Translations under genes and position numbers: made by a program | The notes under the pieces: model-generated | The model's input: the letters and a program-made list of their open reading frames with translations, nothing else | What the model was told of the DNA's origin: nothing | Database searches by the model: none | Shown here: piece by piece, positions 17,228 to 34,184 of the stretch | Numbering within the stretch: position 1 is the first letter of the stretch | Layout of the letters: every line of letters begins with the position of its first letter | Assembly (NCBI RefSeq): GCF_019635455.1 | Contig: NZ_JAHBZJ010000013.1 | Coordinates: forward strand, 1-64,000 | Origin: Sphingomonas sp. | GTDB lineage: Bacteria > Pseudomonadota > Alphaproteobacteria > Sphingomonadales > Sphingomonadaceae | Direction: 5' to 3' | Length of the DNA: 64,000 bases

Positions 17228-20017
17228 TCACGGCTTGATCCCGTACCGCGCATATTCGGCATCGATGCCCGGCGACATCAACCGGGCGCCAGCCAGATCC
17301 GCGGCAGCCCGCGCGTCGCCCCTGGACTTGCGGATGACGCCGCGCATGAACACGCTGGCGGTCAGGTCCGGTTCCTGCTGCAACGCCGCGTCGATATCCG
17401 CCAGCGCGGCGTCCATGCGCCCCATCCGGAAATAGACCAGCGCGCGGCTGTCGAGATAGGCCGAATTGTCTTCGCTCAGTTCGATCGCCTTGGTGCAGTC
17501 CTGAAGCGCAGCCTCCAGTTCGACATTGTGCGTGCCGCGCATCCAGCATCGCGTGTTGAACAGTTCGGTGCTGCGCGGATAGGATTCGATCAGACCGTCC
17601 ATGATTCCCACGGCCTCCTCGACCTTCCCCGAATCCGCCAGATACTTCGCGCGCTGGGCGGCATAACCGGCACGGACCTTGTCGTTCGTCATCTCGATCT
17701 GTTCGTCCGCGATCGCGATCGCACCGGCATAATCGCCCTTGCTCGCGCGATAGTCGATCGCAAGCTTGATCGCATGATGCGACGAAGGGTCAAGTTCGCG
17801 CGCCTTGTCCGCATCGGCGATCGCCTTGTCATGCCGGCCCAGCAGGTCGAAGACCGACGCGCGCTGCGCGTAGAGGTCGGCGCTCGGCGCGAGCGCGAGC
17901 GCGCGGTCGAAATCGCCGATCGCGGCCGCATAGTCGAACACGGACAGGCGGAATCCGGCGCGGGCGAGATACACCGTCGCCGATTGCGGATCGGCGGCCA
18001 CCGCCTCGTCCAGGATCGCGTTGATCTTTGCGAACGCGCCGGGCCTGCCCTCCTGCCAGCGCTCCGGATATCCGGCCGGCGCCACCAGACGGAGCAGCTT
18101 GGCCTTGGCCATCGCCAATTCGCGCCGCGTCGCCGGCACCTGCGCCGGATCGATCTCCGCGCCGGTGGTGATCAGCTGATCCTCGACGGTCACCGTCCCG
18201 CCGGTCAGCGATGCGCGGCGACGCAGCACCCGGCCGGCAAGCTGTGCGGGAAGCGTTTCCGCGCCGTCAAGCGCGAACCCTGCCCCCGCCTTGGGGAGCC
18301 GGTAACTGACGCGAATCCGAATATTCGAAGGGTCGCCCGTCGTCACCGGCAGGTCCCGCCAGCTGGCACGGCCGCGATCGGGATTGAACGTAATCGCCTG
18401 AACCGCGTGATCGACCGTCAGTCTGCGACGCCCGTCGTCCAGGTTCCAGCCGGGTTCGGCGACGCCGGTGGCGCTGATGATCGCGGTTCCCGCCGCATCG
18501 TCGAAATCGATCCGCCGGCGGACGAGCGCGACGATCGATGCATAGTCGCCGAGCGCTCTCGCGACCATCTGGTCGCGCTGTTCCTTGCCCATCGTCGCAT
18601 CGGCAGTGCGCAACAACTGAACGACGGGTCCGTGCAACGTGACCTTTGCGGTTACCGGCGCAAGGAAGTTGATCCCGGCGCTCTGATCGAAGTCGAGCGC
18701 CACGTCGAATTGCGGCCGCGCATCGGGCTGGAGCGGCAGATCGACCAGCCCCGCCCCCGCCATGCGCAGCGGCAGCGCATGCCGAAATGGTGGCACGTCG
18801 CCCAAATCCTCCAGACGATCGCCGTTCGAGGTTCCGTCGAGCCACAGGCTGGTGCCGTCGATGGTCGCATGCACGATGACATGGTCGAACGCGGCCGGCA
18901 TCGGCAGGCGCTTCGGCACCAGGTCTCCAAGCGTCGAATGCACCAGCACCGCCTCCGCCTCGATGCCCAGTTCACGCAGGATCGCAAGCAGCAGCAGCGA
19001 CTTCGCCTTGCAGTCGCCATAGCGGGCCGACCAGGTTTCGGCGGGCGACTGGGGCGCGTAATTGCCCTGCGCCATACCGTTGAACAGGTATCGCACCTTG
19101 TCCTGCACCAGTCGCAGCGCGGCCGCCGCCCGGCGTCGCGGCTCCGGCGAAGCGGCGGCGATCGCGGCGACCTCCTGCGCCAGCGCGCTACCCGGCGCGA
19201 TCAGCCCCTGGGTCCGATAGAGCGGCGCCATCGCCTTCGATACCGCCTGCCAGTCGGGATAGCTGGCCGCGTCAAGGATCGCGACCGGCCGATACCGCAC
19301 CGGAATATCCTTTGGCATCTCCGGCACCTTCGGGAGCGGGAGGGCAATCTCCAGCTCCTTCATTCCTGCGACCGTCCGCGGTGGCTGAATCCTCGACCAG
19401 TCGGCATAGGAGCGCCAGACGATCGGCGCCGCTTCCGGCCAGATCAGGCGGACGCGCCCGAATTGCGTGCGCATCGGCTCAGCGAACAGCGGCAGCGAGC
19501 TTTGCACCTGCCCGCCCAGCACGCGGTCGCGGCGGGTGACGGTGAAGCGCAGTCGCAGCACGTCGCCGACCCGCAGCCCCTCGACCGGCATCGTGGCGGT
19601 CAGCACGCCGTCGAGTTGCAGCTGCTCCAGCTTCTGCTCGCGGCGAATTACCGGAATCTGCTTCCCCCCGGCGAGCAGGTCGATCGTCTCGCTGCCGCGC
19701 AGGATGCTGGCGCTGTGGACCGTCAGATCGCCCTGGTCCGGGTTCCACGGCAGCTGGATTGTTCCCGCCTGGGCCAGGATTTCGGGGGACGCGATCCGGG
19801 TCGCACTTTCGACATAATGCGCAACCTCGCCATCGGCGAGACGCTCCTGCTGGTCGATGATCAGGAAGATCGGCGAGGCGTCGGTGATCGTCGTCATATC
19901 GACCGGCGGCGCTGGCTTCACCCACGCCGGCACGGGCGCATAAAGCAGCTTGTCGCCTGCCCATGCGGGCGCGACGACGACGGTCAAAGCCGCGAACGGC
20001 GCAATGATACGGATCAT
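17228..20017 (-). CDS. large periplasmic DUF3857/transglutaminase/TPR protein
   Basis: A 929-residue exported protein. Signal peptide about 1-20 (ending AWAG); DUF3857-type beta domain about 60-210; transglutaminase-like core about 270-420, with C336 in WSARYGDCKAKSLLLL and a following FDHVIVHATIDG (His) and WLDGTSNG (Asp); a second beta domain; then TPR-like helical repeats from about 640 to the end (LARAGFRLSVFDYAAAIGDF and similar). The Cys-His-Asp triad suggests a peptidase or amide-bond activity in the periplasm. The ATG at 20017 gives a clean signal peptide. The natural substrate is unknown. Confidence 0.85.
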   Translation of the reverse strand: MIRIIAPFAALTVVVAPAWAGDKLLYAPVPAWVKPAPPVDMTTITDASPIFLIIDQQERLADGEVAHYVESATRIASPEILAQAGTIQLPWNPDQGDLTVHSASILRGSETIDLLAGGKQIPVIRREQKLEQLQLDGVLTATMPVEGLRVGDVLRLRFTVTRRDRVLGGQVQSSLPLFAEPMRTQFGRVRLIWPEAAPIVWRSYADWSRIQPPRTVAGMKELEIALPLPKVPEMPKDIPVRYRPVAILDAASYPDWQAVSKAMAPLYRTQGLIAPGSALAQEVAAIAAASPEPRRRAAAALRLVQDKVRYLFNGMAQGNYAPQSPAETWSARYGDCKAKSLLLLAILRELGIEAEAVLVHSTLGDLVPKRLPMPAAFDHVIVHATIDGTSLWLDGTSNGDRLEDLGDVPPFRHALPLRMAGAGLVDLPLQPDARPQFDVALDFDQSAGINFLAPVTAKVTLHGPVVQLLRTADATMGKEQRDQMVARALGDYASIVALVRRRIDFDDAAGTAIISATGVAEPGWNLDDGRRRLTVDHAVQAITFNPDRGRASWRDLPVTTGDPSNIRIRVSYRLPKAGAGFALDGAETLPAQLAGRVLRRRASLTGGTVTVEDQLITTGAEIDPAQVPATRRELAMAKAKLLRLVAPAGYPERWQEGRPGAFAKINAILDEAVAADPQSATVYLARAGFRLSVFDYAAAIGDFDRALALAPSADLYAQRASVFDLLGRHDKAIADADKARELDPSSHHAIKLAIDYRASKGDYAGAIAIADEQIEMTNDKVRAGYAAQRAKYLADSGKVEEAVGIMDGLIESYPRSTELFNTRCWMRGTHNVELEAALQDCTKAIELSEDNSAYLDSRALVYFRMGRMDAALADIDAALQQEPDLTASVFMRGVIRKSRGDARAAADLAGARLMSPGIDAEYARYGIKP

Positions 20018-20153
20018 GTAAAGCCCCCTGTCTGCGACGAAACCTAGCGGCGCGCATGTGATGGGCAAGCGCATTTGCGACCGATCCGGAACCGCGCGGG
20101 ACGCCCGGGGGTTGGACGCGCATGATCGTTTCGAATCCGGTCCGGTCGACCCG

Positions 20154-21383
20154 ATGAGCCGCTGGGCATGGGTGTGGCATGTGCTGTCGCGGCGGCTGTG
20201 GTTTCGCGCCGCCGCATTCTGCGTGGCCGCCGTGCTGCTGGCGCTGGTCGCGCCGCTCACGGCGCCGCTGATTCCCTATCAGCTCGGCGCGAAGCTGGGG
20301 GCCGATGCGGTCGGCAACATCCTGACGATCCTGGCGTCGAGCATGCTGACCGTCACCACCTTTTCGCTGGCGGCGATGGTCGCGGCCTATGGCGCGGCGA
20401 CCACCAATGTCACCCCGCGCGCGGTGACATTGCTGGTGCAGGACAAGACATCGCAGAACGCGCTGTCGACCTTTCTCGGCGCGTTCCTGTTCGCGATCGT
20501 CGGCATCTGCGCGCTATCGACCGGTTTCTACGGCGCACAGGGGCGGGTGCTGCTGTTCGGCGGCGCGATCGCGCTGATCGTCATCATTGTCGTCACGCTG
20601 CTGCGCTGGATCCAGCATCTCGCCAAGCTGGGCCGGGTGCATGACAGCATCGTGCGCGTCGAGCGTGCGGCGTTGTCGGCGGTCGATTCGGTGCAGCACC
20701 CGCCGCGCATCGCCGCGCTGGCGATGCCGCCGGTGCCGGCCGATGCCGAACCGGTCTTTTGCGCCGACCGGATCGGCTATGTCACCAATATCGATCTGGG
20801 CGAGTTGCGCGATGCGATGGGCGATTGCGGCGGGCGGGTGATGCTGGGCGTGGTGCCGGGCAGCTTCATCGACCCCGGGCGGGCCGCCGCCTGGGTGACC
20901 GGTGGCGATGCCGCGACGATCGATCGCGTGCGCCGCGCGATCACGATCGAGCGCGACCGCAGTTTCGACCATGATCCGCGATTCGGCCTGATCGTGCTGT
21001 CCGAAATCGCCTCACGCGCGCTGTCGCCGGCGGTGAACGACCCCGGCACCGCGATCGCCGTGCTGGGCGCACAGTTGCGGGTGATGCAGAAGCTGTCGCA
21101 GAGCGAGGGGGCGCCATTCGACGAACGCGTGGTGCTGCCGGCCCTGGCGATCGAGAAGCTCGTCGCAGACGCGTTCCGCCCGGTCGCGCGCGACGGCGCC
21201 GGACAGATCGAGGTGGCGCTCAAGCTTCAGAAGGTCCTCGCGGCGCTCGCGCATATCGAGCCGCAATGGTCGCCCGCCGCGCGTGCCGCCGCGCGTGAGG
21301 CGAGCACGCGGGCGAGCGCCGCGCTCGCGCTGCGGGACGACGCGCTGGCGGTGGCGCGCGCCTTTGACGACTGGCCGGACTGA
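20154..21383 (+). CDS. DUF2254 family membrane protein
   Basis: A 409-residue protein with four hydrophobic helices in about residues 15-160, a conserved SSMLTVTTFSLAAMVAAYGAA segment in helix 2, then a large soluble domain of about 250 residues with RALSPAVNDPGTA, the diagnostic DUF2254 motif. The function is unknown; the architecture suggests a membrane channel or sensor with a cytosolic domain. The ATG at 20154 (MSRWAWVWH) removes a charged extension of 32 residues that would start within the intergenic region upstream. Confidence 0.85.
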   Translation: MSRWAWVWHVLSRRLWFRAAAFCVAAVLLALVAPLTAPLIPYQLGAKLGADAVGNILTILASSMLTVTTFSLAAMVAAYGAATTNVTPRAVTLLVQDKTSQNALSTFLGAFLFAIVGICALSTGFYGAQGRVLLFGGAIALIVIIVVTLLRWIQHLAKLGRVHDSIVRVERAALSAVDSVQHPPRIAALAMPPVPADAEPVFCADRIGYVTNIDLGELRDAMGDCGGRVMLGVVPGSFIDPGRAAAWVTGGDAATIDRVRRAITIERDRSFDHDPRFGLIVLSEIASRALSPAVNDPGTAIAVLGAQLRVMQKLSQSEGAPFDERVVLPALAIEKLVADAFRPVARDGAGQIEVALKLQKVLAALAHIEPQWSPAARAAAREASTRASAALALRDDALAVARAFDDWPD

Positions 21384-21391
21384 CGGGGAGG

Positions 21392-23308
21392 TCAGCCGGG
21401 GTGGTAGAAGTCGTGGACCTGCTGCGCGACCGCCGCTGACACGCCGGGCGCTTTTTTGAGGTCGTCCAGGCTGGCCCCGCGCACCGCCCGCGCGGTGCCG
21501 AAATGCATCAGCAGCGCCTTTTTCCGTGCCGGACCGATGCCCGGCACTTCATCCAGCGGCGATGCGCCGATCGCCTTTGCGCGCTTCGCCCGGTGCGCGC
21601 CGATGGCGAAGCGGTGGACCTCGTCGCGCAGCTTCTGGATGTGGAACAGCGCCGCCGCGTTGGTCGGCAACATCCGCTCGCTGCCGTCCATCAGGTGGAA
21701 CACCTCGCGCCCCTCACGCCCATGATGCGGCCCCTTGGCGACACCGACCAGGCAGACGTCCTCGATCCCCATCTCCTCCAGCACCGCGCGCGCGGCGTTG
21801 AGCTGGCCCTTGCCCCCGTCGATCAGGACAAGGTCGGGCCACACGCCCCTGTCGCGGTCGGGGTCCTCCTCCTGCGCGCGGGCGAAGCGGCGGGTGAACA
21901 CCTCACGCATCATCGCGAAATCGTCGTCGGTCGCCGCGCTCTTGATGTTGAACTTGCGATACTGGCCCTTGCGGAACCCTTCCGGCCCGGCGACGATCAT
22001 CGCGCCGACCGCGCTCGTCCCCTGGATATGGCTGTTGTCATAGACTTCGATCCGGTCGGGCGGTTCGGCCAGCCCGAACAGGTCGGCGATCTCCCGCAGG
22101 ATCCGCGCCTGCGTCGTCGATTCGGCCATGCGGCGATCCAGCGCCTCGACCGCGTTGCGCTCGGCCTGTTCCATCAGCTTGCGCCGCGCGCCGCGCTGCG
22201 GACGGCTGATCTCGACCTTGAATCCCGCACGCTCGCCCAGCGCCTGCGCCACCACGTCGCACTCGGGCAGGTCGCGATCGATCAGCACCGTACGCGGCGG
22301 CGGCACCTCCTCATAGAATTGCATGAGGAACTGGGTCAGCACCTCCTCGTCCGGCACTTCGGCGGTGTGCGCGGGGAAAAAGGCGCGATGCCCCCAATTC
22401 TGGCCGCCACGAATGAAGAAGGCCTGGATGCCGATCTGTCCCTGTTTGGCGGCGAGCGCGAAGATGTCGGCATCGCCCACCCCCTCCGCATTGATCGCCT
22501 GCGACCCCTGGATGAAGGTCAGCGCCTTCAGCCGGTCGCGCAGCACGGCGGCCAGTTCGAAATCGAGGGTCTCCGCCGCCGCCTGCATCTGCTCGCCGAG
22601 CTTCGCCTGCACCTTGGTCGATTTGCCCATCAGGAAATCGCGCGCGTCGGACACCAGTTCCTCATACCCCGCCTTGTCGATGCGATCGACGCAGGGGGCC
22701 GAGCAGCGGCGGATCTGATAGAGCAGGCACGGCCGGTCGCGGGTATTGAAGAACCCGTCGGTGCAACTGCGCAGCAGGAACAGTTTCTGAAGCGCGTTCA
22801 GCGTCTTGCGTACCTGCCCCGCGCCCGCGAACGGGCCGAAATAATCGCCCTTGGCCCGTCGCGCACCGCGATGCAGCTGGACGCGGGGAAAGTCGTGATC
22901 GCCGCGCAGCAGGATGTAGGGAAAGGATTTGTCGTCGCGCAGCAGCACGTTGTAGGCGGGCCGGAACCGCTTGATCAGCTGCGCCTCGAGCAGCAGCGCC
23001 TCGGCCTCGTTATTGGTCGTCACGACGGTCATGCCGCGCGTTTGCGCGATCATCCGACGCAGGCGGTTCGACAGCTTCGCCGGCTGGGTGTAGTTGGCCA
23101 CGCGATTTTTCAGCGCGCGCGCCTTGCCGACATAGAGAACGTCGCCGCGCGCATCCTGCATGCGATAGACGCCGGGGCGCGCGGGCAGCGTCTTCAGCAC
23201 GTTGCGGATCGCCGCGACGCCGGCATCAAGGTCGGGCGTTTCCGACCCGCGCACCGCAAAGGTCGCGCCTTCCTCATTGAACCGGTTCGGGGAATTGGGG
23301 GAGGACAT
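21392..23308 (-). CDS. uvrC: UvrABC excinuclease subunit C
   Basis: UvrC makes both incisions in nucleotide excision repair. This 638-residue protein has the N-terminal GIY-YIG nuclease (LPARPGVYRMQDARGDVLYV, GKARALKNRV), the cysteine cluster CTDGFFNTRDRPCLLYQIRR followed by C-S-A-P-C, a UVR UvrB-binding motif (about 215-250), the RNase H-like 3' nuclease domain (YDNSHIQGT, LVLIDGGKGQLNAA) and a C-terminal helix-hairpin-helix (DEVPGIGPARKKALL). All key parts are intact. It converges with the DUF2254 gene, leaving only eight bases between stops. Confidence 0.97.
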   Translation of the reverse strand: MSSPNSPNRFNEEGATFAVRGSETPDLDAGVAAIRNVLKTLPARPGVYRMQDARGDVLYVGKARALKNRVANYTQPAKLSNRLRRMIAQTRGMTVVTTNNEAEALLLEAQLIKRFRPAYNVLLRDDKSFPYILLRGDHDFPRVQLHRGARRAKGDYFGPFAGAGQVRKTLNALQKLFLLRSCTDGFFNTRDRPCLLYQIRRCSAPCVDRIDKAGYEELVSDARDFLMGKSTKVQAKLGEQMQAAAETLDFELAAVLRDRLKALTFIQGSQAINAEGVGDADIFALAAKQGQIGIQAFFIRGGQNWGHRAFFPAHTAEVPDEEVLTQFLMQFYEEVPPPRTVLIDRDLPECDVVAQALGERAGFKVEISRPQRGARRKLMEQAERNAVEALDRRMAESTTQARILREIADLFGLAEPPDRIEVYDNSHIQGTSAVGAMIVAGPEGFRKGQYRKFNIKSAATDDDFAMMREVFTRRFARAQEEDPDRDRGVWPDLVLIDGGKGQLNAARAVLEEMGIEDVCLVGVAKGPHHGREGREVFHLMDGSERMLPTNAAALFHIQKLRDEVHRFAIGAHRAKRAKAIGASPLDEVPGIGPARKKALLMHFGTARAVRGASLDDLKKAPGVSAAVAQQVHDFYHPG

Positions 23309-23337
23309 CGCCCCCGATCTAGGGACTGTCCACCGAT

Positions 23338-24840
23338 TCAGCTAGCCGGCAGCGTGGCGATCCACGCCTCGATCCCGTCGGTATCGGCCAGCGCGCCGTT
23401 CCAGCGATATTTGGGTACCGCCGGCACATTCGATCCACGGGTACGGCCGCGATACACCTTTGTCGGTAGCCAGGCCCGCATGACTCCGCCGGGCAGTTCG
23501 AACCCCCGCACCTCCATATACAGCGTGTCGGCATCGGTTTCCTGCCCCACCTGGGTCGCACCCAGATCGGTCAGGACATCGACCGCGTCGAGACAGGCCG
23601 ACGCACAGCCGAAATCGGTGAGCACGAAGATCCGGGCGCGCACCGGATCGGCGCCCGCGGGCAGAGCAGGGCGGACGCCGGACGGATTCTCTGGGTCCGC
23701 AAAGCGCCAGAACGCCTGCCCCTTTGCCTTTGCCCCCTCCATGCCGGCGATCATCAGCTTCACGAGCCGGTGGAGTTCCGGACTGTCGGCCGGGTCGAGC
23801 TTCTTGGCGAAGTCGCTGAAATTGGCGATGTTGCCGTCCGACACGCGATAGTCGGTTTCCGACGCGCTCCAGGTCTTGGCATCGTACCAGGGCTTGCCCC
23901 ACAAGGCGCGCGCCGTGCGCGCCATCCATTCGGATGACCCCCCGCTATTGCCACGCAGGTCAAAGACGAGGCGCGGCGCGGACGCCAGTTCGGCATGGCG
24001 CGATTCGATCTCGCGCACCAGCGCGGTCAGTTGCGCCCCGTCCTCGCTCTGGGGATCGCTTTCGAACGTCCCCATGCGGATCCAGAAGCCGCCATCGGCC
24101 TGTTTCCTCAGACCGATTCCCGTGCCGAACCGGGTCCCTACCGTCTCTGCGATCAGCGTGCTGCGACGCGTGCTGTCGATTGGCGTCCAGTTCAGCCGAT
24201 AGCCCATCCGCTTCCCCGCCGATTCGAACGTGCAGCGCTTCGCCGGCGCGCGCCATGGATTGTCGGACCGCAGGAACAGGCGCGGCGCGGTCCGCACGCG
24301 CGTCGCGGTCAGCCGCCACCGCCCGGTCAGCGGCCCTAGCCGTTCCGCCGCGAATTGCTCGACACCCTTGCCATCGCACCCGATCAGGCGTGCGCCCGGC
24401 GCGGGCCGCGCTTCGCCTTCGCGCTGCACGACGCGCCACGCGCCGTCACGCAGCGCGACGACGAAACCGGGCCAGGTGAACGCCCAGGGGTGCGCATAGC
24501 CCTGATCGATCGGCGCGACACCCAGATGCCCGTCATCAAAGGCGTTGCCGAATTCGACCATCGCCCAATAATATTCGCGATAGCCGATACCGGCTTTCGC
24601 CCGAGACATCGCGAGGCGGTAACTGCGGTCGAGCAGCGCGTCGAAGCCGGGATTTTCCGTGTCCAGAGGACCGGGATGCGAATCCAGAATCGCGGCACGA
24701 AACGCGGTCGCGTCCTGACGGAGCAGGGACGCGTAATCGCGCGCCGGTGCCTTTTGCACGCCGGCATCGGATTGTGCCGACGCCGCACCAGCGACGACCA
24801 GCGCCACCGCAGCAACGGCACATGCAACGGATTTCACCAC
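23338..24840 (-). CDS. exported S41-like (tail-specific) protease homologue
   Basis: A 500-residue protein with a signal peptide (about 1-22, ending ASAQ) and a C-terminal S41 peptidase-like domain. The fold signature LVFDLRGNSGGSSEW and the nucleophile region FVLTDFGCASACLDAVD are visible; the Ser in CASAC sits where S41 enzymes carry their catalytic serine, though flanked by cysteines. A middle domain lacks an obvious PDZ. Paired GTG codons at 24840/24837 follow a GGAGGA ribosome-binding site. It probably hydrolyses peptides in the periplasm, but activity is not assured. Confidence 0.78.
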   Translation of the reverse strand: MVKSVACAVAAVALVVAGAASAQSDAGVQKAPARDYASLLRQDATAFRAAILDSHPGPLDTENPGFDALLDRSYRLAMSRAKAGIGYREYYWAMVEFGNAFDDGHLGVAPIDQGYAHPWAFTWPGFVVALRDGAWRVVQREGEARPAPGARLIGCDGKGVEQFAAERLGPLTGRWRLTATRVRTAPRLFLRSDNPWRAPAKRCTFESAGKRMGYRLNWTPIDSTRRSTLIAETVGTRFGTGIGLRKQADGGFWIRMGTFESDPQSEDGAQLTALVREIESRHAELASAPRLVFDLRGNSGGSSEWMARTARALWGKPWYDAKTWSASETDYRVSDGNIANFSDFAKKLDPADSPELHRLVKLMIAGMEGAKAKGQAFWRFADPENPSGVRPALPAGADPVRARIFVLTDFGCASACLDAVDVLTDLGATQVGQETDADTLYMEVRGFELPGGVMRAWLPTKVYRGRTRGSNVPAVPKYRWNGALADTDGIEAWIATLPAS

Positions 24841-24940
24841 CCCGATACTCCTCCATCGGCAGCTATAGCCGGGCTTTTGCCCCCTTCCACTGCGATCTGC
24901 GCGGGGCTAGCCTGCCGCGATACAAAAGGGGGATTATCAC

Positions 24941-26266
24941 ATGCGCCTGCTCGCCGGCCTGCTCGCCACCAGCCTTCTTGCCGCGCCGGCGCTTGCCGGA
25001 CCCGATTTCGCGCCGGCGGTGGAGGCCGATTATGCGGCGCACCTCGAAAAGCTGTTCGTCGATTTCCACCGGAATCCGGAATTGTCGTTCAAGGAAACCC
25101 GCACCGCCGCGATCATGGCAAAGGAATTGCGCGCGGTCGGCGGGATCGAGGTGACCGAGGGCGTGGGCGGCACCGGCGTCGTCGGGGTGATGAAGAATGG
25201 CGAGGGTCCGACGGTGCTGGTGCGCGCCGACATGGACGGCCTGCCGCTCAAGGAAGACAGCGGCGTCGCCTATCCCTCCACGGTCACCCAGGTCGATATC
25301 GACGGCGTGACGAAGCCGGTGATGCACGCCTGTGGCCATGACGTGCATATCACGTCGATGATCGGCACCGCGCGCCAGCTGGCGCGGATGAAGGATCGCT
25401 GGCGCGGCACCGTCGTGTTCGTGGTGCAGCCCGCCGAGGAGCGGATCGGCGGCGCGCGCAAGATGATGGAGGACGGCCTCTATACGCGGTTTCCAAAGCC
25501 CGATTATGCCGTCGCGTTTCATGTCGCGGCGGGGGTTCCCACCGGCAAGCTGATGCTGGAGCCGGGGATTTCCTCCTCTTCGTCGGACAGCGTGGACATC
25601 ACCGTGTTCGGCGTCGGCACCCATGGCGCCGCGCCGCATATGGGCAAGGACCCGATCGTCATGGGCGCCGAGATCGTGATGGCGTTGCAGACGCTGGTCA
25701 GCCGGGAGATCGCCCCTCTCAGCCCCGGCGTCGTCACCGTCGGATCGTTTCATTCGGGGTTCAAGCACAACATCATCTCCGACAAGGCGGAACTGCAACT
25801 GACCGTGCGGTCCGACGATGAGGGGACGCGCAAGAAGCTGCTCGACGGGATCAAGCGCATTGCCGAGAATGTGGGGCGGATGAACGGCCTGCCCGAGGAC
25901 AAGCTGCCCAAGGTGCGCGTCGGATTCGAATCGACGCCGGTGACGATCAACAACCCGGCGCTGACGGGGCGCGTGCAGAGCGCCTTTACCGGCGCGTTCG
26001 GCGAAACGATCCTGCATCGCGAACCGCGCCAGTCGATGGGCGCGGAGGATTTCGCCTATTTCATTCAGCAGGACAGCGGCGTTCCGGGCGCCTATTTCCA
26101 GGTCGGCGGCACCCCCCAGGCGGAGATCGACGCGGCGAAGAATGGCGGCAAGCCGGTGCCTTCACACCATTCGCCCTTCTTCAAGATCGACCCCAAGGCG
26201 TCGGTGACGCTGGGGACCGAGGCGACGACGGTCGCGGTGCTCGATCTGCTCAAGCCCAAAAGCTAG
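24941..26266 (+). CDS. secreted M20-family amidohydrolase/carboxypeptidase
   Basis: A 441-residue zinc amidohydrolase of the HmrA/hippurate-hydrolase type. A signal peptide (about 1-20) precedes the catalytic domain, with RADMDGLP (95-102), the metal site HACGHDVH (129-136, C131 and H133) and QPAEE (163-167). The dimerisation domain inserts in the middle (THGAAPHMGKDPI), and QSMGAEDFAYF supplies the last metal region. It likely hydrolyses N-acyl or peptide amides in the periplasm. The start follows AAGGGGGAT at good spacing. Its stop shares a CTAG with the convergent DUF202 gene. Confidence 0.92.
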   Translation: MRLLAGLLATSLLAAPALAGPDFAPAVEADYAAHLEKLFVDFHRNPELSFKETRTAAIMAKELRAVGGIEVTEGVGGTGVVGVMKNGEGPTVLVRADMDGLPLKEDSGVAYPSTVTQVDIDGVTKPVMHACGHDVHITSMIGTARQLARMKDRWRGTVVFVVQPAEERIGGARKMMEDGLYTRFPKPDYAVAFHVAAGVPTGKLMLEPGISSSSSDSVDITVFGVGTHGAAPHMGKDPIVMGAEIVMALQTLVSREIAPLSPGVVTVGSFHSGFKHNIISDKAELQLTVRSDDEGTRKKLLDGIKRIAENVGRMNGLPEDKLPKVRVGFESTPVTINNPALTGRVQSAFTGAFGETILHREPRQSMGAEDFAYFIQQDSGVPGAYFQVGGTPQAEIDAAKNGGKPVPSHHSPFFKIDPKASVTLGTEATTVAVLDLLKPKS

Positions 26267-26655
26267 CGCTCGACGCGCGCGTCCATGATCCAGAGCGCGG
26301 CCAGAAGCGCGAGCGCACCGATGGTATAGACCCAGGCGATCAGCCGGATGTTGAGCGCGCCGAGTTGCTTGATCCGGTGCGCCGACAGCCGCGACTGGAT
26401 CGCGCAGGCACGGCGTTCGGCCATCCAGACGATCAGGATGCCCAGCGCGACGAACAGCGTCGCGATGACGCGCGGCAGCCAGACGGGTTCGATCGCGCCG
26501 AACAGCACGTGAAAGCCCAGGCCGATTCCCACCGTCGCGAGCGCGGTGCGCGCCCAGCCGCTGAAGGTTCGCTCATTCGCCAGAAGGGTGCGGTCCTCGG
26601 CCAGATCGGTCCGCTCTTCGGCCAGCCGGTTCTTGGTCTTCGCGTCATCGCCCAT
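26263..26655 (-). CDS. DUF202 (YidH-like) membrane protein
   Basis: A 130-residue protein with the DUF202 hallmark LAEERTDLAEDRTLLANERT followed by FSGWARTALA, then three hydrophobic helices (about 37-55, 60-80, 103-122). The function of YidH-type proteins is not established; in other organisms family members associate with membrane complexes. It ends on the same CTAG as the M20 amidohydrolase and begins about 80 bases from the divergent methyltransferase gene. Confidence 0.88.
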   Translation of the reverse strand: MGDDAKTKNRLAEERTDLAEDRTLLANERTFSGWARTALATVGIGLGFHVLFGAIEPVWLPRVIATLFVALGILIVWMAERRACAIQSRLSAHRIKQLGALNIRLIAWVYTIGALALLAALWIMDARVER

Positions 26656-26697
26656 GCCGGCTCAACGCCCGACGCGGCGGATTGCTTCGCGCGCCAA

Positions 26698-26727
26698 CCA
26701 GTGTAATGGTGAGATAATACACACTGG
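26698..26727. promoter_or_regulatory. inverted repeat over the methyltransferase promoter/RBS
   Basis: CCAGTGT (26698-26704) and ACACTGG (26721-26727) form a perfect 7-base inverted repeat with a 16-base AT-richer spacer holding GATAAT at 26713-26718, a possible -10. The right arm abuts the GGAGG ribosome-binding site of the gene starting at 26736. It looks like a repressor operator; no binding protein is identified. Confidence 0.5.
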
Positions 26728-26735
26728 AGGGTTCG

Positions 26736-27494
26736 ATGAAGCTGTTCGCCTGTGCAATATCCGCCGCATCGCTGGCCGCGATCGCGGTCCCGGCCATTGC
26801 CGGCCAGACGGTCAGCAAGCCGGTGGTCGCCGCGCTCGCCAATCCGGACCGACCCGCCGATCAGCGGGCGATCGACGGTCGGCGCAAGGCGGGTGAGATC
26901 CTGACCTTTGCCGGGATCAGGCCGGGGGACAGGGTCGCGGACTTCGTGATGGGCGGCGGATATTGGACCCGCATCCTTTCACCGCTCGTCGGTCCGAAAG
27001 GCAAAGTCTATGCCTACCAGCCCGCCGAGTTCATCAAGTTTCAGCCATCCTATGCCGAGCAGCAAAGGGCCGCCGTCGCCGGTCTGTCCAACGCCGTCGC
27101 GAAGGATGAGAGCTTTGGCGCGCTCGCCTTTCCGGAAAGGCTGGATGCGATCGTCACCGTCCAGAATTATCACGACCTGTTCCTGAAACCCTTTCCCCGC
27201 ACCCTGGCCGCGGACGTCACGAAGAAGTTGTTCGACGCGCTGAAGCCGGGCGGCGTGCTGCTGGTCGTCGATCATGTCGCGGCGAGCGATCCGGACAATG
27301 TCGCGCCCGACAAGCTGCACCGGATCGATCCCGCCATCGCGCGGGCGGCGATCGAACAGGCGGGCTTCCGCTTCGCGGGGAAGCTGGACGTGCTGCGCAA
27401 TCCCGACGACCCGCACGGCGCCAGCGTGTTCGACCCGTCGATCCGCGGCAAGACCGATCAGTTCATCTATAAATTCGTGAAGCCGAAACGCTGA
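26736..27494 (+). CDS. class I SAM-dependent methyltransferase-like protein with signal peptide
   Basis: A 252-residue protein whose first 22 residues (Lys, then FACAISAASLAAIAVPAIAG) form a convincing Sec signal peptide, followed by a Rossmann methyltransferase-like domain. Motif I is VADFVMGGGYWTRILSPLVG and a motif near the end of the fold is LKPGGVLLVVDHVAA, similar to ubiquinone/menaquinone methyltransferase-type proteins. The FVMGGGYWT glycine motif deviates from the usual GxGxG. SAM is not known to be freely available in the periplasm, so the protein may be non-catalytic or bind another ligand. It is a single-gene unit behind an inverted repeat. Confidence 0.82.
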   Translation: MKLFACAISAASLAAIAVPAIAGQTVSKPVVAALANPDRPADQRAIDGRRKAGEILTFAGIRPGDRVADFVMGGGYWTRILSPLVGPKGKVYAYQPAEFIKFQPSYAEQQRAAVAGLSNAVAKDESFGALAFPERLDAIVTVQNYHDLFLKPFPRTLAADVTKKLFDALKPGGVLLVVDHVAASDPDNVAPDKLHRIDPAIARAAIEQAGFRFAGKLDVLRNPDDPHGASVFDPSIRGKTDQFIYKFVKPKR

Positions 27495-27636
27495 GGCCAT
27501 GCGGACACGCGCCGGCATCGCCCCACAGGCGAGCGGGCGGCGACCGATGCGGACTGGCCCGAACCGGCGGGTGGCGCCATCCCGCCGTCCCGTGGCCGAC
27601 GCGCGCGTGATCCGGCAACACGCTTGACCGACAACG

Positions 27637-27673
27637 AAAAGGCCCGCGATCCGGATGGACCACGGGCCTTTTT
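27637..27673. terminator. bidirectional intrinsic terminator
   Basis: AAAAGGCCCG (27637-27646) pairs with CGGGCCTTTTT (27663-27673) across a 16-base loop. The T-tract follows the stem on the plus strand and the A-tract gives one on the minus strand. It lies between the convergent methyltransferase gene and atpF and can end both transcripts. Confidence 0.85.
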
Positions 27674-27691
27674 CAACGGCTTCAGCGCCGG

Positions 27692-28339
27692 TCAGTTGAC
27701 CGTGCCGAGACCCGCGATCGTGCGATCCACCAGCGCCTTGTCGGCACCGGCATCATGCTTCTGCGCGATGATCGCCGCAGCGGCCTTAGCGGCGGCATCG
27801 GCGGCGCGCGCGCGGACCTGGTCGATCGCGGCGCGTTCGGCGGCGGCGATCTTCTCCTCCGCCATCTTGCCGCGACGCTTCACCAGATCGTCGGCGTCCT
27901 GCTTCGCCTTCGCGACCAGCGCCTTCGCTTCCTCATCGGCATGGGCGACCATTTCGGCGGCCTGGGCCTCAACACTGGCGATCCTGCGCGCATATTCGTC
28001 GCGCAGCGCCTCGGCCTCGTTGCGCAGCGCCTTCGCCTCGTCCAGCCGGGCGCGAATCTGGGCGATCTGGGTATCCAGCCCACGCGCGATCAGCCCCGGA
28101 ACCTTCTTCCACAGAAGGATCAGGATGAAGGCGAGCATCGCGATCGACACCCACACGGTCGAGGTCAGCAGACCGAAGCTCGCGGGGTCGGCATGCGCCT
28201 CGCTCGGCCCGCCATGCTGAATGGTCACCGCCTTCGTTCCGGTGTCGGGAAGGCCCATGCCCTTGCCCTTCGCCGCTTCGCTCAAATTCTCTGCCACGGG
28301 ATCCCCCGCCTGGGCAGGCGCCGTCTGAACGTCAGCCAT
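27692..28339 (-). CDS. atpF: F0F1 ATP synthase subunit b
   Basis: Subunit b is part of the peripheral stator stalk linking F0 to F1. This 215-residue version has a non-canonical N-terminal extension of about 50 residues (Ala/Gly/Pro-rich), one membrane helix (about 60-78, VSIAMLAFILILLW) and a long Ala/Glu-rich coiled coil (about 85-200). It is the last gene of the minus-strand F0 operon, overlaps the b' gene by 8 bases and is followed by an intrinsic terminator. The extension is longer than in E. coli b (about 156 residues in total). Confidence 0.93.
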   Translation of the reverse strand: MADVQTAPAQAGDPVAENLSEAAKGKGMGLPDTGTKAVTIQHGGPSEAHADPASFGLLTSTVWVSIAMLAFILILLWKKVPGLIARGLDTQIAQIRARLDEAKALRNEAEALRDEYARRIASVEAQAAEMVAHADEEAKALVAKAKQDADDLVKRRGKMAEEKIAAAERAAIDQVRARAADAAAKAAAAIIAQKHDAGADKALVDRTIAGLGTVN

Positions 28340-28823
28340 TGAGCGCCGCCTTCACTGCCGTCTTTGCCTCGGCAGCGGTGACCTTCGCCCCCGAAACCTT
28401 GGCGACGATGTCCTGCGCCGCCTCGGCGGCGACCGCTTCGATCTCGCCCTTCGCCGCTTCGGACGCCGCAGCGATGCGCGCCTCCGCCTCGACGACTCTC
28501 GCGTCGAGTTCGCCATTCGCGACGGCGAGCTTCTTCTCGGTCTCGGCGGCGGCCTTGCCGCGCGCCTCGGCGAGCTTCGTCTGCGCCGCCTCACGCGCCG
28601 CATTTTCATGCGCCCGCCAGCTTTCCTCGGCGGCGTCCGCCTGGACGCGCGCCGCCTCGGCCGCCTTAAGGTCGTCGGCCACGGTCTGATCGCGCTGATC
28701 GACCGTCGCCTGAACCTTGGGCGCCATGCCCCGGCCGATGACGAAATAGACGATGCCGAAGGTCACAAACAGCCAGAACAGCTGAGAGGCCCAGGTCGCC
28801 GCGAGTTGCGAGATTTGAGGCAT
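28332..28823 (-). CDS. atpF2: F0F1 ATP synthase subunit b'
   Basis: A 163-residue second stator subunit that forms a b/b' heterodimer in alphaproteobacteria and photosynthetic bacteria. It opens MPQISQLAATWASQLFWLFV, the recognisable b' N-terminus, with a membrane helix at about 14-32. A charged Ala/Glu/Lys coiled coil fills the rest. It lies between the c-subunit gene and atpF, and its end overlaps the start of atpF by 8 bases. Confidence 0.93.
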   Translation of the reverse strand: MPQISQLAATWASQLFWLFVTFGIVYFVIGRGMAPKVQATVDQRDQTVADDLKAAEAARVQADAAEESWRAHENAAREAAQTKLAEARGKAAAETEKKLAVANGELDARVVEAEARIAAASEAAKGEIEAVAAEAAQDIVAKVSGAKVTAAEAKTAVKAALNG

Positions 28824-28887
28824 ATTGATCCTGTCCTGTCACGGACCGGAGCAGCGGAACGCCGCCCCGGCCCGAACGGGAGAGCAG

Positions 28888-29133
28888 TTACGCGACGAAG
28901 ATCAGGATCATCGCGACGACGAACGCGAGCAGGCCGAGAAGCTCGGCGGCCGCGAAGCCGATGAACAGGCGGCCCTGCTGGCCGTCGGCCGCACCCGGAT
29001 TGCGCAGCGCGCCTTCAAGGAACGAGCCGAAGACGTTGCCCACACCGATCGCGGCCATGCCCGCGCCGATCGCGGCAAGGCCGGCGCCGATGAGCTTCGC
29101 CGCTTCCGGGCTGATCATGCTGGTCGGTTCCAT
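28888..29133 (-). CDS. atpE: F0F1 ATP synthase subunit c
   Basis: An 81-residue proteolipid forming the rotor ring. Two hydrophobic helices are joined by the polar loop [11 protein letters not shown]; the proton-carrying Glu is in the second helix ([13 protein letters not shown]). The Gly/Ala-rich first helix ([17 protein letters not shown]) is typical for ring packing. The ATG at 29133 (MEPTSM) is chosen; the frame continues to 29238 without a good start. Glu rather than Asp at the ion site is usual for this group. Confidence 0.96.
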
Positions 29134-29182
29134 TTTCAAAACTCCTGCTTCAAATTCAGTTGGTGGTTGTTGACGAAAAAAC

Positions 29183-29965
29183 TCAGTGCAGATGCTCGGC
29201 GTCGTGGATGTAGAGCGCGGTGAGCAGCGCGAAGACATAGGCCTGAATGCCCGCCACCAGCACTTCGAGCGCCGAAATGCCGACCATCAGCGCGAAGCTG
29301 GGGATGCCGACGATCCCGCCCCACATCGGGCTGGCCGCGCCGGAATTGATGACGAAGCCGGCCAGCACCTTCAGCAGGATGTGGCCCGCGGTCATCGCGA
29401 CGAACAGTCGCAGGCCCAGGCTGAACGGGCGGAACAGGAACGAGATCAGTTCGATGACAAAGATCATCGGGACCATATAGCCCGGCGTGCCGGCCGGCAC
29501 GAACAGGCTGAAGAAGTGAAAGCCATGCTTCCAGAAGCCGACGATCAGCACGATCGAGAAGCTGAGCAGCGCGAGCACGCCGGTGATCGTGAAATGGCTG
29601 GTGAAGGTGAACGGATGCACGCCGAACAGCCCGAGCGGCAGCAGCCCCAGCAGGTTGGCGAACAGGATGAACATGAACAGCGAGAAGACATAGGGCAGAT
29701 ATTTCCGCCCGCCCTTGCCGATATTGTCATCGACCAGCTTGGCGATGAAGCCGGTGAAGTTTTCCACCAGCATCTGCCAGCGGCCGGGTACGACCTGCTG
29801 CTTCATGCCGCCGGCCATGAAGACCCACAGCACGATCATCGCGACGACCATCCACAGCGCCGAGTTGGTGAAGGCGATCTGATGCCCGCCGATGTTGAAA
29901 CCGTCCCAGATCGTCTGCACCTCAAACTGGTGCATCGGGTCGATCTTGCCAGATTCTGCCGCCAC
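29183..29965 (-). CDS. atpB: F0F1 ATP synthase subunit a
   Basis: A 260-residue membrane subunit that forms the proton half-channels. It has five to six helices, including the conserved [20 protein letters not shown] segment whose Arg (in LGLRLF) faces the c-ring, and a C-terminal helix with [20 protein letters not shown]. It uses a GTG start at 29965 ([16 protein letters not shown]); an ATG at 29935 would remove ten residues. It sits between atpI and atpE in the F0 operon. Confidence 0.96.
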
Positions 29966-30080
29966 GCCGTCTTCCTGTTTGATCGGCCCGCCGGGGCGCG
30001 CCGCTCTTCGTTTGTCTACCGCGATTTCCGGGCGCCGCGCGCGGGCGGCTGGAAATCACTTTGGCAAAAGCGCCCGAAAG

Positions 30081-30398
30081 TCACTTCGAGCGCTGGTTCG
30101 AAATCCTGAAGATGTTCCTGAACGCGACCCCGATTCCGAGGAACAGCATCACGAGCAGGAGCCAGGGGGATGTTCCGAGGAACCGATCGAGCAGCCACCC
30201 GATCAGCGCCCCTCCCGCCAGACCGCCGACCAGCTCGGCGAGAACGCGATTGCCCAGGCGATAATCATCCTCGCCCTTGTCGTCGCTCTCGCCTCTGCGG
30301 ATCGCCTCATCGGTTTGCGCCCGCGCCAGCCGCTCGTTCAGCGCGGCGATGCGTGCATCCTCCTTGAGGGGGTCCAGTCCGGGCTCGTTCTCGGCCAT
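30081..30398 (-). CDS. atpI: AtpI-family F0 assembly protein
   Basis: A 105-residue protein, first gene of the F0 operon. It has a charged N-terminal half with an acidic RRGESDDKGEDDYRLGNR stretch, then two membrane helices (GGLAGGALIGWLLDRFLG and LLLVMLFLGIGVAFRNIFRI). AtpI assists c-ring assembly or Mg2+ supply in other bacteria. The start at 30398 (MAENEPGLD) is preferred over the long frame to 30473. It is divergent from radC, with about 210 bases between starts. Confidence 0.88.
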   Translation of the reverse strand: MAENEPGLDPLKEDARIAALNERLARAQTDEAIRRGESDDKGEDDYRLGNRVLAELVGGLAGGALIGWLLDRFLGTSPWLLLVMLFLGIGVAFRNIFRISNQRSK

Positions 30399-30608
30399 CT
30401 CGTCTCTCCACAGCCTCCAGCCACGTCGCAGGACACCGGGCAAAACGCATGCGCCGAGCGGCAAGCCCGCCAAGGCACGCGCGCTTTAGAAAGGGGGGGG
30501 AGCCGAGTCAACCGCGGTGCAACAATCGTGCGTGCGAACGCGCGACGCCCGGTTGCCGACCGCCCCCGCCGGGAACCGCTTCCCTTCGGCAGGATCACCC
30601 TCTACCCA

Positions 30609-31307
30609 ATGCCTATGGGCGCGGCCGACAGCGATGCGATCACCGACGGCAGCGGACATCGCGCGCGACTGCGCCAGCGCCTGTTGAGCGACGGCGAGGG
30701 TCTGCTGGACCATGAGCTTGTCGAATATCTGCTCGCACTGGCGATTCCCCGCCGCGATACCAAGCCGCTGGCAAAGGCGCTGCTCCATGAATTTGGCGGG
30801 CTGACCGGCCTGTTGACCGCGGAAGCGGAAGCGATCGCGCGCGTACCGGGAATGGGCGAGACGTCGGTCGCGGCGATCAAGATCGCGCACGCCTCCGCCC
30901 TGCGCCTGCTCAAGGGCGAGGTGGCGGCGCGGCCGGTGCTGGCGAACTGGCAGGCGCTGCTCGACTATCTGCGCGCCGACATGGCGCCGCATGTGATCGA
31001 GCGGGTGCGCGTGCTGCACATGAATTCGCGCAACATGCTGATCCGCGACGAATTGATGCAGGAAGGGTCGGTGGACGAGGCGCCGGTCTATGTCCGCGAA
31101 GTGATCCGCCGCGCGCTGGAACTGGGATCGGCGGCCATCATCCTGGTGCATAATCATCCCAGCGGCGATCCCGCGCCCAGCCGGGCCGATATCGAATTGA
31201 CCCGCAACATCGTCGAGGCGGGCAAGCGACTGGGCATCGCCGTACACGATCACATCATCATCGGCTCCACCGGCCATTCCAGCCTGCGGGGCATGGGCCT
31301 GATGTAA
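30609..31307 (+). CDS. radC: RadC family JAB1/MPN-domain protein
   Basis: A 232-residue RadC protein. An N-terminal helix-hairpin-helix-like region (about 15-105, with AIARVPGMGETSVAAIK) is followed by the JAMM metalloprotease-like domain with H181-N-H183-P-S-G-D and D194 as metal ligands. RadC was named for a supposed repair role that was later withdrawn; its true function is unsettled. The ATG at 30609 gives the usual length, with 30615 the alternative; the long upstream frame runs antisense through atpI. It is a single-gene unit. Confidence 0.9.
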   Translation: MPMGAADSDAITDGSGHRARLRQRLLSDGEGLLDHELVEYLLALAIPRRDTKPLAKALLHEFGGLTGLLTAEAEAIARVPGMGETSVAAIKIAHASALRLLKGEVAARPVLANWQALLDYLRADMAPHVIERVRVLHMNSRNMLIRDELMQEGSVDEAPVYVREVIRRALELGSAAIILVHNHPSGDPAPSRADIELTRNIVEAGKRLGIAVHDHIIIGSTGHSSLRGMGLM

Positions 31308-31348
31308 GCGCGCGCACATGCGGGCGCGCACGGAGATTTGACGCGGAA

Positions 31349-31376
31349 CGGCCGCCGGACCGAAATCCGGCGGCCG
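31349..31376. terminator. strong hairpin between convergent radC and EF-hand genes
   Basis: CGGCCGCCGGA (31349-31359) and TCCGGCGGCCG (31366-31376) form an 11-base perfect stem with a six-base loop. No T-tract follows on either strand, so it may end transcription only weakly or protect 3' ends. Its position between two convergent stops fits a terminator. Confidence 0.6.
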
Positions 31377-31415
31377 CTGGACGGGAGATGCGGATACCCG
31401 TCCGGGAGGGGCCTC

Positions 31416-31976
31416 TTACGAAGGCTGGGGGGCAAGGAAGCCCTTGAGTTCATCCTTGCTCACACCGCCCGATTTGTCGGTATCGGCCGCAGCCATCGCC
31501 TTGCCGATCCATTCCTTGTCCGCTGCCGACTCACCGGTGAAGGCTGGTTCGGCTGGCGAACGCAGCGCGACCATCCAGGCGCCGAATTCCTCGCTCTTCA
31601 GATTGCCGTCGGCATCCTTGTCATAGGTCGGAAAGTCCTGATCTACGATCTGGGCGATCTGCGCCGGGGTCGCCGGCTGCTTTGCAGGCTGCGACTGCGC
31701 CATCTGCGGCTCCGAAGTCGCCGGCTCGGCCGGGGTGGCCGGTGTCGTGGGCGTTGCCGCCACGGGCGTGCCGGGTGCCGTATCGGCCGGTTCATCCGTC
31801 GCCGATGGCGTGGCCGCCTGTGGCGGCGTTGCAGGTTCCGCCGGTGTGGCCGGCTCGGCTGGCGTGGCGGGCGCCGCCGGCGGCGATTCGGCCTGCGGCT
31901 CGCCAGCCGGCATGTCCTGCGCCAATACCGGCGCAGAAATCGTCATCGCGCCGGCAAGAAATATCGTCTTGAGCAT
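31416..31976 (-). CDS. secreted EF-hand calcium-binding protein with Pro/Ala/Thr-rich linker
   Basis: A 186-residue exported protein. Signal peptide about 1-20 (ending VLAQ), then a low-complexity linker (about 25-105) of repeated TPAEPA-type units, then two EF-hands. Loop 1 has D119, D121, D123, N125 and E130; loop 2 has D165, D167, S169, G171 and E176. The ligand pattern is close to canonical, so Ca2+ binding is likely. Similar small EF-hand proteins are frequent in sphingomonads, with no assigned role. Its promoter lies in the AT-richer gap shared with purB. Confidence 0.85.
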   Translation of the reverse strand: MLKTIFLAGAMTISAPVLAQDMPAGEPQAESPPAAPATPAEPATPAEPATPPQAATPSATDEPADTAPGTPVAATPTTPATPAEPATSEPQMAQSQPAKQPATPAQIAQIVDQDFPTYDKDADGNLKSEEFGAWMVALRSPAEPAFTGESAADKEWIGKAMAAADTDKSGGVSKDELKGFLAPQPS

Positions 31977-32121
31977 TGAAAATCTCCTGCTCTATTGGAC
32001 GAGAGGCACGTGATATTCAGCGCCACCCGTGAAGATATCGAACACCCAACAAACGCGTTGCATTTTTACAACGTTCCCTGAAAAATTACTTCGCTATCAA
32101 CTTGACGATACATAACCTCGA

Positions 32122-32154
32122 CTCGTCGCGTCACCGTTTGGATTTTGCGACGAG
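32122..32154. promoter_or_regulatory. inverted repeat upstream of purB
   Basis: CTCGTCGC (32122-32129) and GCGACGAG (32147-32154) form a perfect 8-base inverted repeat with a 17-base T-rich spacer, 75 bases before the purB ATG. It could be an operator or a 5'-leader hairpin. The rest of the gap 31977-32228 is unusually AT-rich and otherwise shows nothing I can name. Confidence 0.45.
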
Positions 32155-32228
32155 ATGAAGCGCGGGGATGCGGTTTACGGCGCCCGCCCCGCTTTGCTAG
32201 GGGCGCGGCGCACCACGAAAGGCTTGCC

Positions 32229-33542
32229 ATGGTTCCCCGCTATTCCCGCCCCGAAATGACCGCCATCTGGTCGGCCGAAAGCCGCTATGGCATCTGGTTC
32301 GAGATCGAGGCGCATGCGACCGACGCCCTGGCCGACCTTGGCGTCGTCCCGAAATCCGCGGCCAGGGCGCTGTGGGACTGGTGGGCGACGAACCCGTCGA
32401 TCGACGTCGCGGCGATCGACGCGATCGAGGCGGTGACGAAGCACGACGTCATCGCCTTTCTGACCTGGGTCGCGGAAAATGTCGGCGAGGAAGCGCGCTT
32501 CATGCATCAGGGCATGACGTCGAGCGACGTGCTCGACACCTGCCTGGCGGTACAGCTGGCCCGCGCGGCGGACATTCTGCTGGCGGATATCGACGCGCTG
32601 CTCGCGGTCCTCAAGCGGCGGGCGGAGGAGCATAAATATACGCCCACGATCGGGCGCAGCCACGGCATCCATGCCGAACCGGTGACGTTCGGCCTGAAAA
32701 TGGCGGAAGCCTATGCGGAGTTCGCCCGCAACAGGACGCGCCTGGTCGCCGCGCGCGCGGACATCGCGACCTGTGCGATCTCCGGCGCGGTCGGCACCTT
32801 CGCCAATATCGATCCCCGGGTGGAAGCGCATGTCGCCGGGAAGCTGGGCCTGGCGGTCGAGCCGGTTTCGACCCAGGTCATCCCGCGCGATCGCCATGCG
32901 ATGTTCTTCGCCACGCTGGGCGTCATCGCCAGCTCGATCGAGCGGCTCGCGGTCGAAATCCGCCACCTTCAGCGCACCGAGGTGCTGGAGGCGGAGGAAT
33001 ATTTCTCCCCGGGCCAGAAGGGCAGCAGCGCGATGCCGCACAAGCGCAATCCGGTGCTGACCGAAAACCTGACCGGCCTTGCCCGCATGGTCCGTAGCGC
33101 CACGATCCCGGCGATGGAGAATGTCGCCTTGTGGCACGAGCGCGACATCAGCCATTCGTCGGTCGAGCGCTATATCGGTCCGGACGCGACGATCACGCTC
33201 GATTTCGCGCTGGCACGGCTGACGGGGGTGATCGACAAGCTGCTGGTCTATCCCGCGCGCATGCAGAAGAATCTCGACCGGATGGGTGGCCTGGTCCATT
33301 CGCAGCGCGTGCTGCTGGCGCTGACCCAGGCCGGAGTGAGCCGGGAGGACAGCTATCGCCTGGTCCAGCGCAACGCGATGAAGGTGTGGGAGAGCGACGG
33401 CGACCTGTCGCTGCTCGACCTGCTCAAGGCCGATCCCGACGTGACCGCCGCGCTATCGACGCAGGAGATCGAGGAAAAGTTCGACCTCGACTATCATTTC
33501 CGACAGGTCGATACGATCTTTGCACGGGTGTTCGCCGAGTGA
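32229..33542 (+). CDS. purB: adenylosuccinate lyase
   Basis: PurB cleaves SAICAR and adenylosuccinate in purine synthesis. The 437-residue protein has the fumarase/aspartase superfamily signature GSSAMPHKRNP (265-275) and the short-form PurB N-terminus MVPRYSRPEM. The active-site region QGMTSSDVLDTCLA and the catalytic His region IGRSHGIHAEPVTFG are intact. The start at 32229 matches the family; the frame extends to 32145 without a conserved sequence. It is monocistronic or leads the small basic-protein gene 66 bases downstream. Confidence 0.96.
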   Translation: MVPRYSRPEMTAIWSAESRYGIWFEIEAHATDALADLGVVPKSAARALWDWWATNPSIDVAAIDAIEAVTKHDVIAFLTWVAENVGEEARFMHQGMTSSDVLDTCLAVQLARAADILLADIDALLAVLKRRAEEHKYTPTIGRSHGIHAEPVTFGLKMAEAYAEFARNRTRLVAARADIATCAISGAVGTFANIDPRVEAHVAGKLGLAVEPVSTQVIPRDRHAMFFATLGVIASSIERLAVEIRHLQRTEVLEAEEYFSPGQKGSSAMPHKRNPVLTENLTGLARMVRSATIPAMENVALWHERDISHSSVERYIGPDATITLDFALARLTGVIDKLLVYPARMQKNLDRMGGLVHSQRVLLALTQAGVSREDSYRLVQRNAMKVWESDGDLSLLDLLKADPDVTAALSTQEIEEKFDLDYHFRQVDTIFARVFAE

Positions 33543-33608
33543 TGCGCGGTCCGGACGATTGACGGCGCGGCGCCTTGGTGATTTACCCGAATAATACAGG
33601 AGTGATCG

Positions 33609-34184
33609 ATGGCCAAGGCGAAGAAACTGAAGGCGAAAGCCGAAAAGGCGCTGAAGACCGGCAAGCTGCCCAAGAAGGTGGCCGGAATCGAGCTGCCGAA
33701 GGAATTGCGCAAGCAGGGCGGAAAGCTGCTGGAGATGGCGCGCAGCCCGCTGGTCGGCGACCTGCTGGCCGCCGGGCTGGTGGCGCTGGCCGCGAACGTG
33801 CGCAACCAGAACCGGCCCAAGGACGAAAATGGCGCGAAGAAGGACCGGTCGGGCGCTGCCGAAGCGCTGGGTCAGACCGCCGCGACGCTCGCGACCGTCG
33901 TCGCCGCCCGGGCAGCGGAGAAGATCACCGGCAAGCTGACCGAACGCGCCGCGCCACCGGCCGCGCCCCGAGCGCCGGACGCGCCGGCGCCCCCGACCGC
34001 ACCGGTCCCGCCGGAAAAGCCCGAACCGTCAGCGCCGCTCAAAACCACCGGAACCCGCAGATCCGCCGCCAAGCCCGCACCGGCACCGGTGAAGACGCCG
34101 CGCGCGAAGGCGCAGCCGCCGCTCAAGGCGGGCGCGACCCGCAAGCCGGCCACCCGCAAGCCGCGCGCGAAGCCGGCATCCTGA
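33609..34184 (+). CDS. Lys/Ala/Pro-rich basic protein, histone H1-like tail
   Basis: A 191-residue protein of no named family. The N-terminal 25 residues are Lys/Ala-rich (MAKAKKLKAKAEKALKTGK). A predicted helical core (about 30-115) contains one hydrophobic helix (SPLVGDLLAAGLVALAANV). The C-terminal about 75 residues are Pro/Ala/Lys/Arg-rich with histone-H1-like units (TRKPATRKPRAKPAS). It could bind nucleic acid or membranes; neither is shown. It is followed by a DUF4126 gene 13 bases downstream, suggesting an operon. Confidence 0.7.
   Translation: MAKAKKLKAKAEKALKTGKLPKKVAGIELPKELRKQGGKLLEMARSPLVGDLLAAGLVALAANVRNQNRPKDENGAKKDRSGAAEALGQTAATLATVVAARAAEKITGKLTERAAPPAAPRAPDAPAPPTAPVPPEKPEPSAPLKTTGTRRSAAKPAPAPVKTPRAKAQPPLKAGATRKPATRKPRAKPAS

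Follow-up and report, generated by a model that had tools for sequence, protein, structure and literature searches.

A predicted exported protein family with a class I methyltransferase fold and an altered SAM signature

Analysis of a 64,000-nt stretch of DNA (hereafter the window, at its full length) identified an ATG-initiated ORF of 252 amino acid residues, at positions 26736 to 27494 of the plus strand, as the gene of an exported protein with a methyltransferase fold. The ORF is a genuine gene, and the genome that contains it, of 3.15 Mb, is Sphingomonas-like. The fold, a conserved export signal, a depletion of cysteine and the loss of the usual SAM signature all come directly from computation on this protein and its relatives, and from them we infer enzymatic activity, the absence of SAM use and the class of substrate. 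We see about an even chance that the protein is an active extracytoplasmic enzyme that keeps the methyltransferase fold, has a non-canonical pocket and makes no canonical use of SAM. In this model, which is built on sequence and predicted structure, the Sec-exported and cysteine-free protein would work in the periplasm, many of its relatives being probable membrane-anchored lipoproteins. Its pocket would no longer be a canonical SAM pocket, with Q95 in place of the ribose-binding acid and another residue, in most members a bulky one, at the first glycine position of motif I. Residues R39, D47, R50, H146-D147, D179-H180, H195-R196-x-D198 and D225 would lie mostly at strand ends, the place of the active site in this fold, and the enzyme would act on a small periplasmic molecule. 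It is the combination of an altered pocket with near-invariant polar residues that argues for an active enzyme without canonical SAM use; against it stand broad structural matches to SAM-using enzymes and a second exported protein of the same genome, a lipoprotein linked to prfB, in which the canonical signature is present.

The gene is preceded by a Shine-Dalgarno sequence, GGAGGG (26726 to 26731, plus strand), and none of the other in-frame starts within codons 1 to 80 (GTG30, GTG71 and ATG72) has one when judged by eye. To its left lie genes for an M20 amidohydrolase (24941 to 26266, plus strand) and a DUF202 protein (26263 to 26655, minus strand); to its right, the minus strand reads as an ATP synthase F0 operon from its ORFs. 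The earlier note had attributed dedicated regulation to a 7-bp inverted repeat, CCAGTGT-16-ACACTGG (gap of 16, positions 26698 to 26727). The letters are there, and the right arm does touch the Shine-Dalgarno sequence, sharing two G with it, but the regulatory claim did not hold up: when the 85-bp stretch was shuffled with its dinucleotides preserved, a repeat of this kind arose in 150 of 2000 cases, and one occurs in 17% of the 80-bp tiles of the window; none of the 11 homologue loci checked has the repeat within 90 bp upstream, two of them (L005 and L048) being identical to each other there. We rejected it as an operator for these two reasons, chance-level occurrence and lack of conservation. 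The exact sequence occurs once genome-wide, and no sigma-70-like promoter was found. The repeat was also rejected as an RNA hairpin because the region folds no better than its shuffles (z-score of 0.06, 102 of 200 shuffles as stable); no Rfam match was found within positions 20000 to 34000.

The methyltransferase-like Rossmann domain proposed in the earlier note proved to be a seven-strand, Rossmann-like class I methyltransferase fold according to AlphaFold, Foldseek and VIA-align alike. The model was computed on an alignment of 60 hand-chosen sequences, the window gene and 59 others, near-identical rows having been removed earlier (69 of 107 retained), and it reached a mean pLDDT of 94.5 with low confidence at the N-terminus, in the signal peptide region. 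Foldseek and VIA-align matches are class I methyltransferases throughout and cover SAM-using enzymes broadly. The top PDB match is the Aquifex aeolicus methyltransferase 3dh0 (Z of 19.4, rmsd of 2.7 over 171 residues), which is also the top sequence-profile match (E of 6e-17) and shares an H-[DE] pair after strand beta4; unlike our protein, 3dh0 has in its aligned sequence the acid after beta2 and the motif I glycines. Foldseek rank 4 is 3ocj of Bordetella parapertussis, titled “possible exported protein”. No Pfam or NCBIfam model matched the 252-aa protein above its cut-off; only weak methyltransferase matches were obtained among PF01135, PF13489, PF13649, PF13847 and PF01209, the best scoring 17.4 bits against a cut-off of 20.3. 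UbiE (PF01209) resembles the protein in its class I fold and weak profile similarity, whereas 18 of 19 UbiE proteins have no signal peptide, all 19 have D after beta2, and our protein falls below the Pfam cut-off. The family is presumably COG4798 / PIRSF031679, “predicted methyltransferase, Alr7345 type”, and its plasmid relatives are annotated as methyltransferases, for example “class I SAM-dependent methyltransferase”. Searches for COG4798 or Alr7345 returned no publication, and searches on exported, secreted or periplasmic methyltransferases returned none on this family, as judged by title and abstract.

Export is a well-supported trait of the whole family, as far as sequence can tell, and not the oddity of one gene. 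The predicted Sec signal peptide occupies residues 1 to 22 (26736 to 26801, plus strand) and reads MKLFACAISAASLAAIAVPAIA|GQ, with a predicted cut after AIA22 at an AxA site judged by eye; the predicted mature domain, residues 23 to 252 (26802 to 27491, plus strand), comprises the seven-strand fold and contains no cysteine. To count signals, we applied a heuristic of our own rather than SignalP, which looks for a charged start followed by an uncharged hydrophobic stretch from every possible start of each ORF. Among 108 family ORFs, from which rows above an E of 1e-15 had been excluded beforehand, 103 have a signal whose N-terminus carries positive charge and 4 more pass without the charge; the last, L026, is a 500-aa ORF beyond the length filter of the rule, yet it has a lipobox. 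By the same rule, 1 of 19 cytosolic UbiE controls passes. The signal peptide called in the earlier note is genuine and conserved, and the true downstream start in homologues that could have undone it was not found, the signal being kept across the family. In a distant set of 36 ORFs, which again includes the window gene and copies of L017 and L021, 33 pass, the misses being L155, L156 and the second copy of L143. A lipobox was detected in 34 of the 108 family ORFs with a loose pattern, some of the cysteines counted falling inside the hydrophobic stretch. As a side observation, L026 appears to contain two family domains in tandem behind one lipobox, and tandem family copies, two or three in a row, occur at L008, L069, L091, L096 and L143. 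After residue 30, 59 of the 60 aligned members have no cysteine, compared to 4 of 19 UbiE cores, a depletion that fits an oxidizing periplasm. The export of the family can be regarded as settled to the extent that such data allow.

The cofactor pocket departs from the usual signature at two positions. Position 95, at the end of strand beta2 (27018 to 27020, plus strand), is the D/E site of SAM methyltransferases and is acidic in none of the 60 aligned members, where it is Q (16), W (15), N (11), V (8) or others; by comparison, D is found there in 19/19 UbiE proteins, and D or E in 5/5 of the PDB alignments shown. Outside the alignment, L154 (D) and L211 (E) are exceptions. The atypical motif I pointed out in the earlier note as FVMGGGYWT lies in DFVMGGGYWTR, residues 69 to 79 (26940 to 26972, plus strand), in which V71 takes the place of the first glycine. 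That glycine occurs in 3 of the 60 members and is replaced mostly by I, V, L or F, whereas D69 and the last two glycines of the D/ExGxGxG motif are retained. Since UbiE has alanine at the first glycine in 19/19 sequences, its absence alone is not diagnostic, and only the bulk of the replacement is unusual. Together, these changes lend support to the suspicion, also voiced in the earlier note, that the cofactor is unusual. Six polar residues are invariant in all 60 members (R39, D47, R50, D137, H146 and H180), and D147, D179, H195, R196, D198 and D225 are nearly so. H146-D147 follows strand beta4 (27171 to 27176), H180 ends strand beta5 (27273 to 27275), and H195 and R196 (27318 to 27323) are each present in 58/60, all on the plus strand. 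The location of these conserved residues, mostly at strand ends, suggests that they cluster in space at the active site of the fold.

The main rival of this reading is that the protein is a true SAM-dependent methyltransferase working outside the cytoplasm, with Q95 replacing the acid and SAM supplied by leakage, lysis, uptake or an exporter, which we hold to be possible, though rather doubtful. The high-confidence methyltransferase fold and the exported-protein title of 3ocj are compatible with it, and a side chain of Q or N at position 95 could still form a bond with the ribose. Its strongest point is a second exported family of the genus, a paralogous lipoprotein encoded in the same genome directly downstream of prfB (L183:1434-2198, on G000:C9). 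At an E of 1e-15 or less, this lipoprotein was found in 19/19 sampled genomes of the genus, our own included, and in 0/12 others; a lipobox is present in 19/19 homologues and is the only feature with a full count, the acid pattern being unmatched in L196 and L207. Like our protein, it is an exported methyltransferase-like protein of the same genome; unlike it, it adjoins prfB and has a canonical SAM signature, with DIGAGEGYYT, GRVLAEDI and a D after beta2 in our own genome. With such a signature on an exported protein, SAM chemistry beyond the cytoplasm becomes easier to conceive. Against this explanation stand the lack of any acid at position 95 and the rarity of the first glycine throughout the alignment, and we know of no source of SAM in the periplasm.

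We find it unlikely that the protein is a non-catalytic relic of a methyltransferase, kept for ligand binding or scaffolding. The relic proposed in the earlier note would agree with an altered SAM signature and with a gene neighborhood that is not constant, but it is disfavored by the invariance of H146, H180, D47, R39 and R50: a set of His, Asp and Arg residues preserved across 28–68% identity argues against decay and is a pattern more typical of an enzyme. The neighborhood itself was considered as a functional clue and set aside, since it is not uniform over the 68 loci examined, and we base no function on it. A uvrC gene is nearby in 18 loci, an M20 amidohydrolase gene in 2, and, in Caulobacterales, a gene for an ECH_2 (3-hydroxyisobutyryl-CoA hydrolase-like) protein in 26 and one for 3-hydroxyisobutyrate dehydrogenase in 24; the two largest clusters obtained by neighbor-gene clustering mixed real and antisense ORFs and were left out. 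In these Caulobacterales loci (L056, L086, L173 and others), many of the family copies have a lipobox, and the adjacent ECH_2 and dehydrogenase genes give a valine-degradation-like cluster.

It is very improbable that the protein is instead a cytoplasmic methyltransferase, with a hydrophobic N-terminal stretch that either stays on as an anchor or results from a wrongly placed start. A signal-less branch does exist, and in L143 the longer N-terminal anchor of the second copy fails the charge rule; yet the signal is kept while its sequence varies, many relatives resemble lipoproteins, cysteine is depleted, and an anchor with a positively charged N-terminus would, by an established topology rule, put the domain outside anyway.

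The preferred reading, an exported enzyme with an altered pocket, extends to a widely distributed family. Matches at an E of 0.001 or less, distant paralogues included, were found in 60 of 61 genomes (our own and relatives), with two in our own (L002 and L003); close orthologues, of at least 57% identity, are patchy and mostly from Sphingomonas and Caulobacter (67 loci). Across a sample of the phylum, matches at an E of 1e-20 or less occur in 75 of 299 genomes and 52 of 180 genera. The signal-less branch consists of L155, L156 and copies from Nostoc, Rhizobium and Paraburkholderia. In a tree of 97 rows, these six proteins form a single branch with a support of 100/100, inside a 38-row node (100/98) whose other rows carry a signal; the tree is midpoint-rooted, and the fork that links the branch to its neighbors is weak (91/47). 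One copy of this branch (L217:2986-3615) is carried by the Rhizobium plasmid pTiB21_90 among SDR oxidoreductase and NTF2-like genes, and near copies are found on Nostoc plasmids. The branch also lacks the acid after beta2 (V95), which indicates that the change of the pocket does not simply track export. Export as the driver of that change, which we considered, is weakened by this observation and by the acid found in L154 and L211. The altered pocket looks like a property of the whole family, with export ancestral and lost once.

We tentatively suggest, as a scenario less probable than its rejection, that a widespread proteobacterial family left the cytoplasm, gave up SAM in favor of a different ligand or chemistry and came to work as periplasmic enzymes or lipoproteins, and that one branch later lost its signal and returned. 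The common assumption is that class I methyltransferases depend on the SAM of the cytosol. A family that is large, exported and changed in its pocket throughout would imply either that SAM can be had beyond the cytoplasm or that the fold has been repurposed, and labels given in databases, “class I SAM-dependent methyltransferase” for example, may mislead as to both the cofactor and the compartment of its members.
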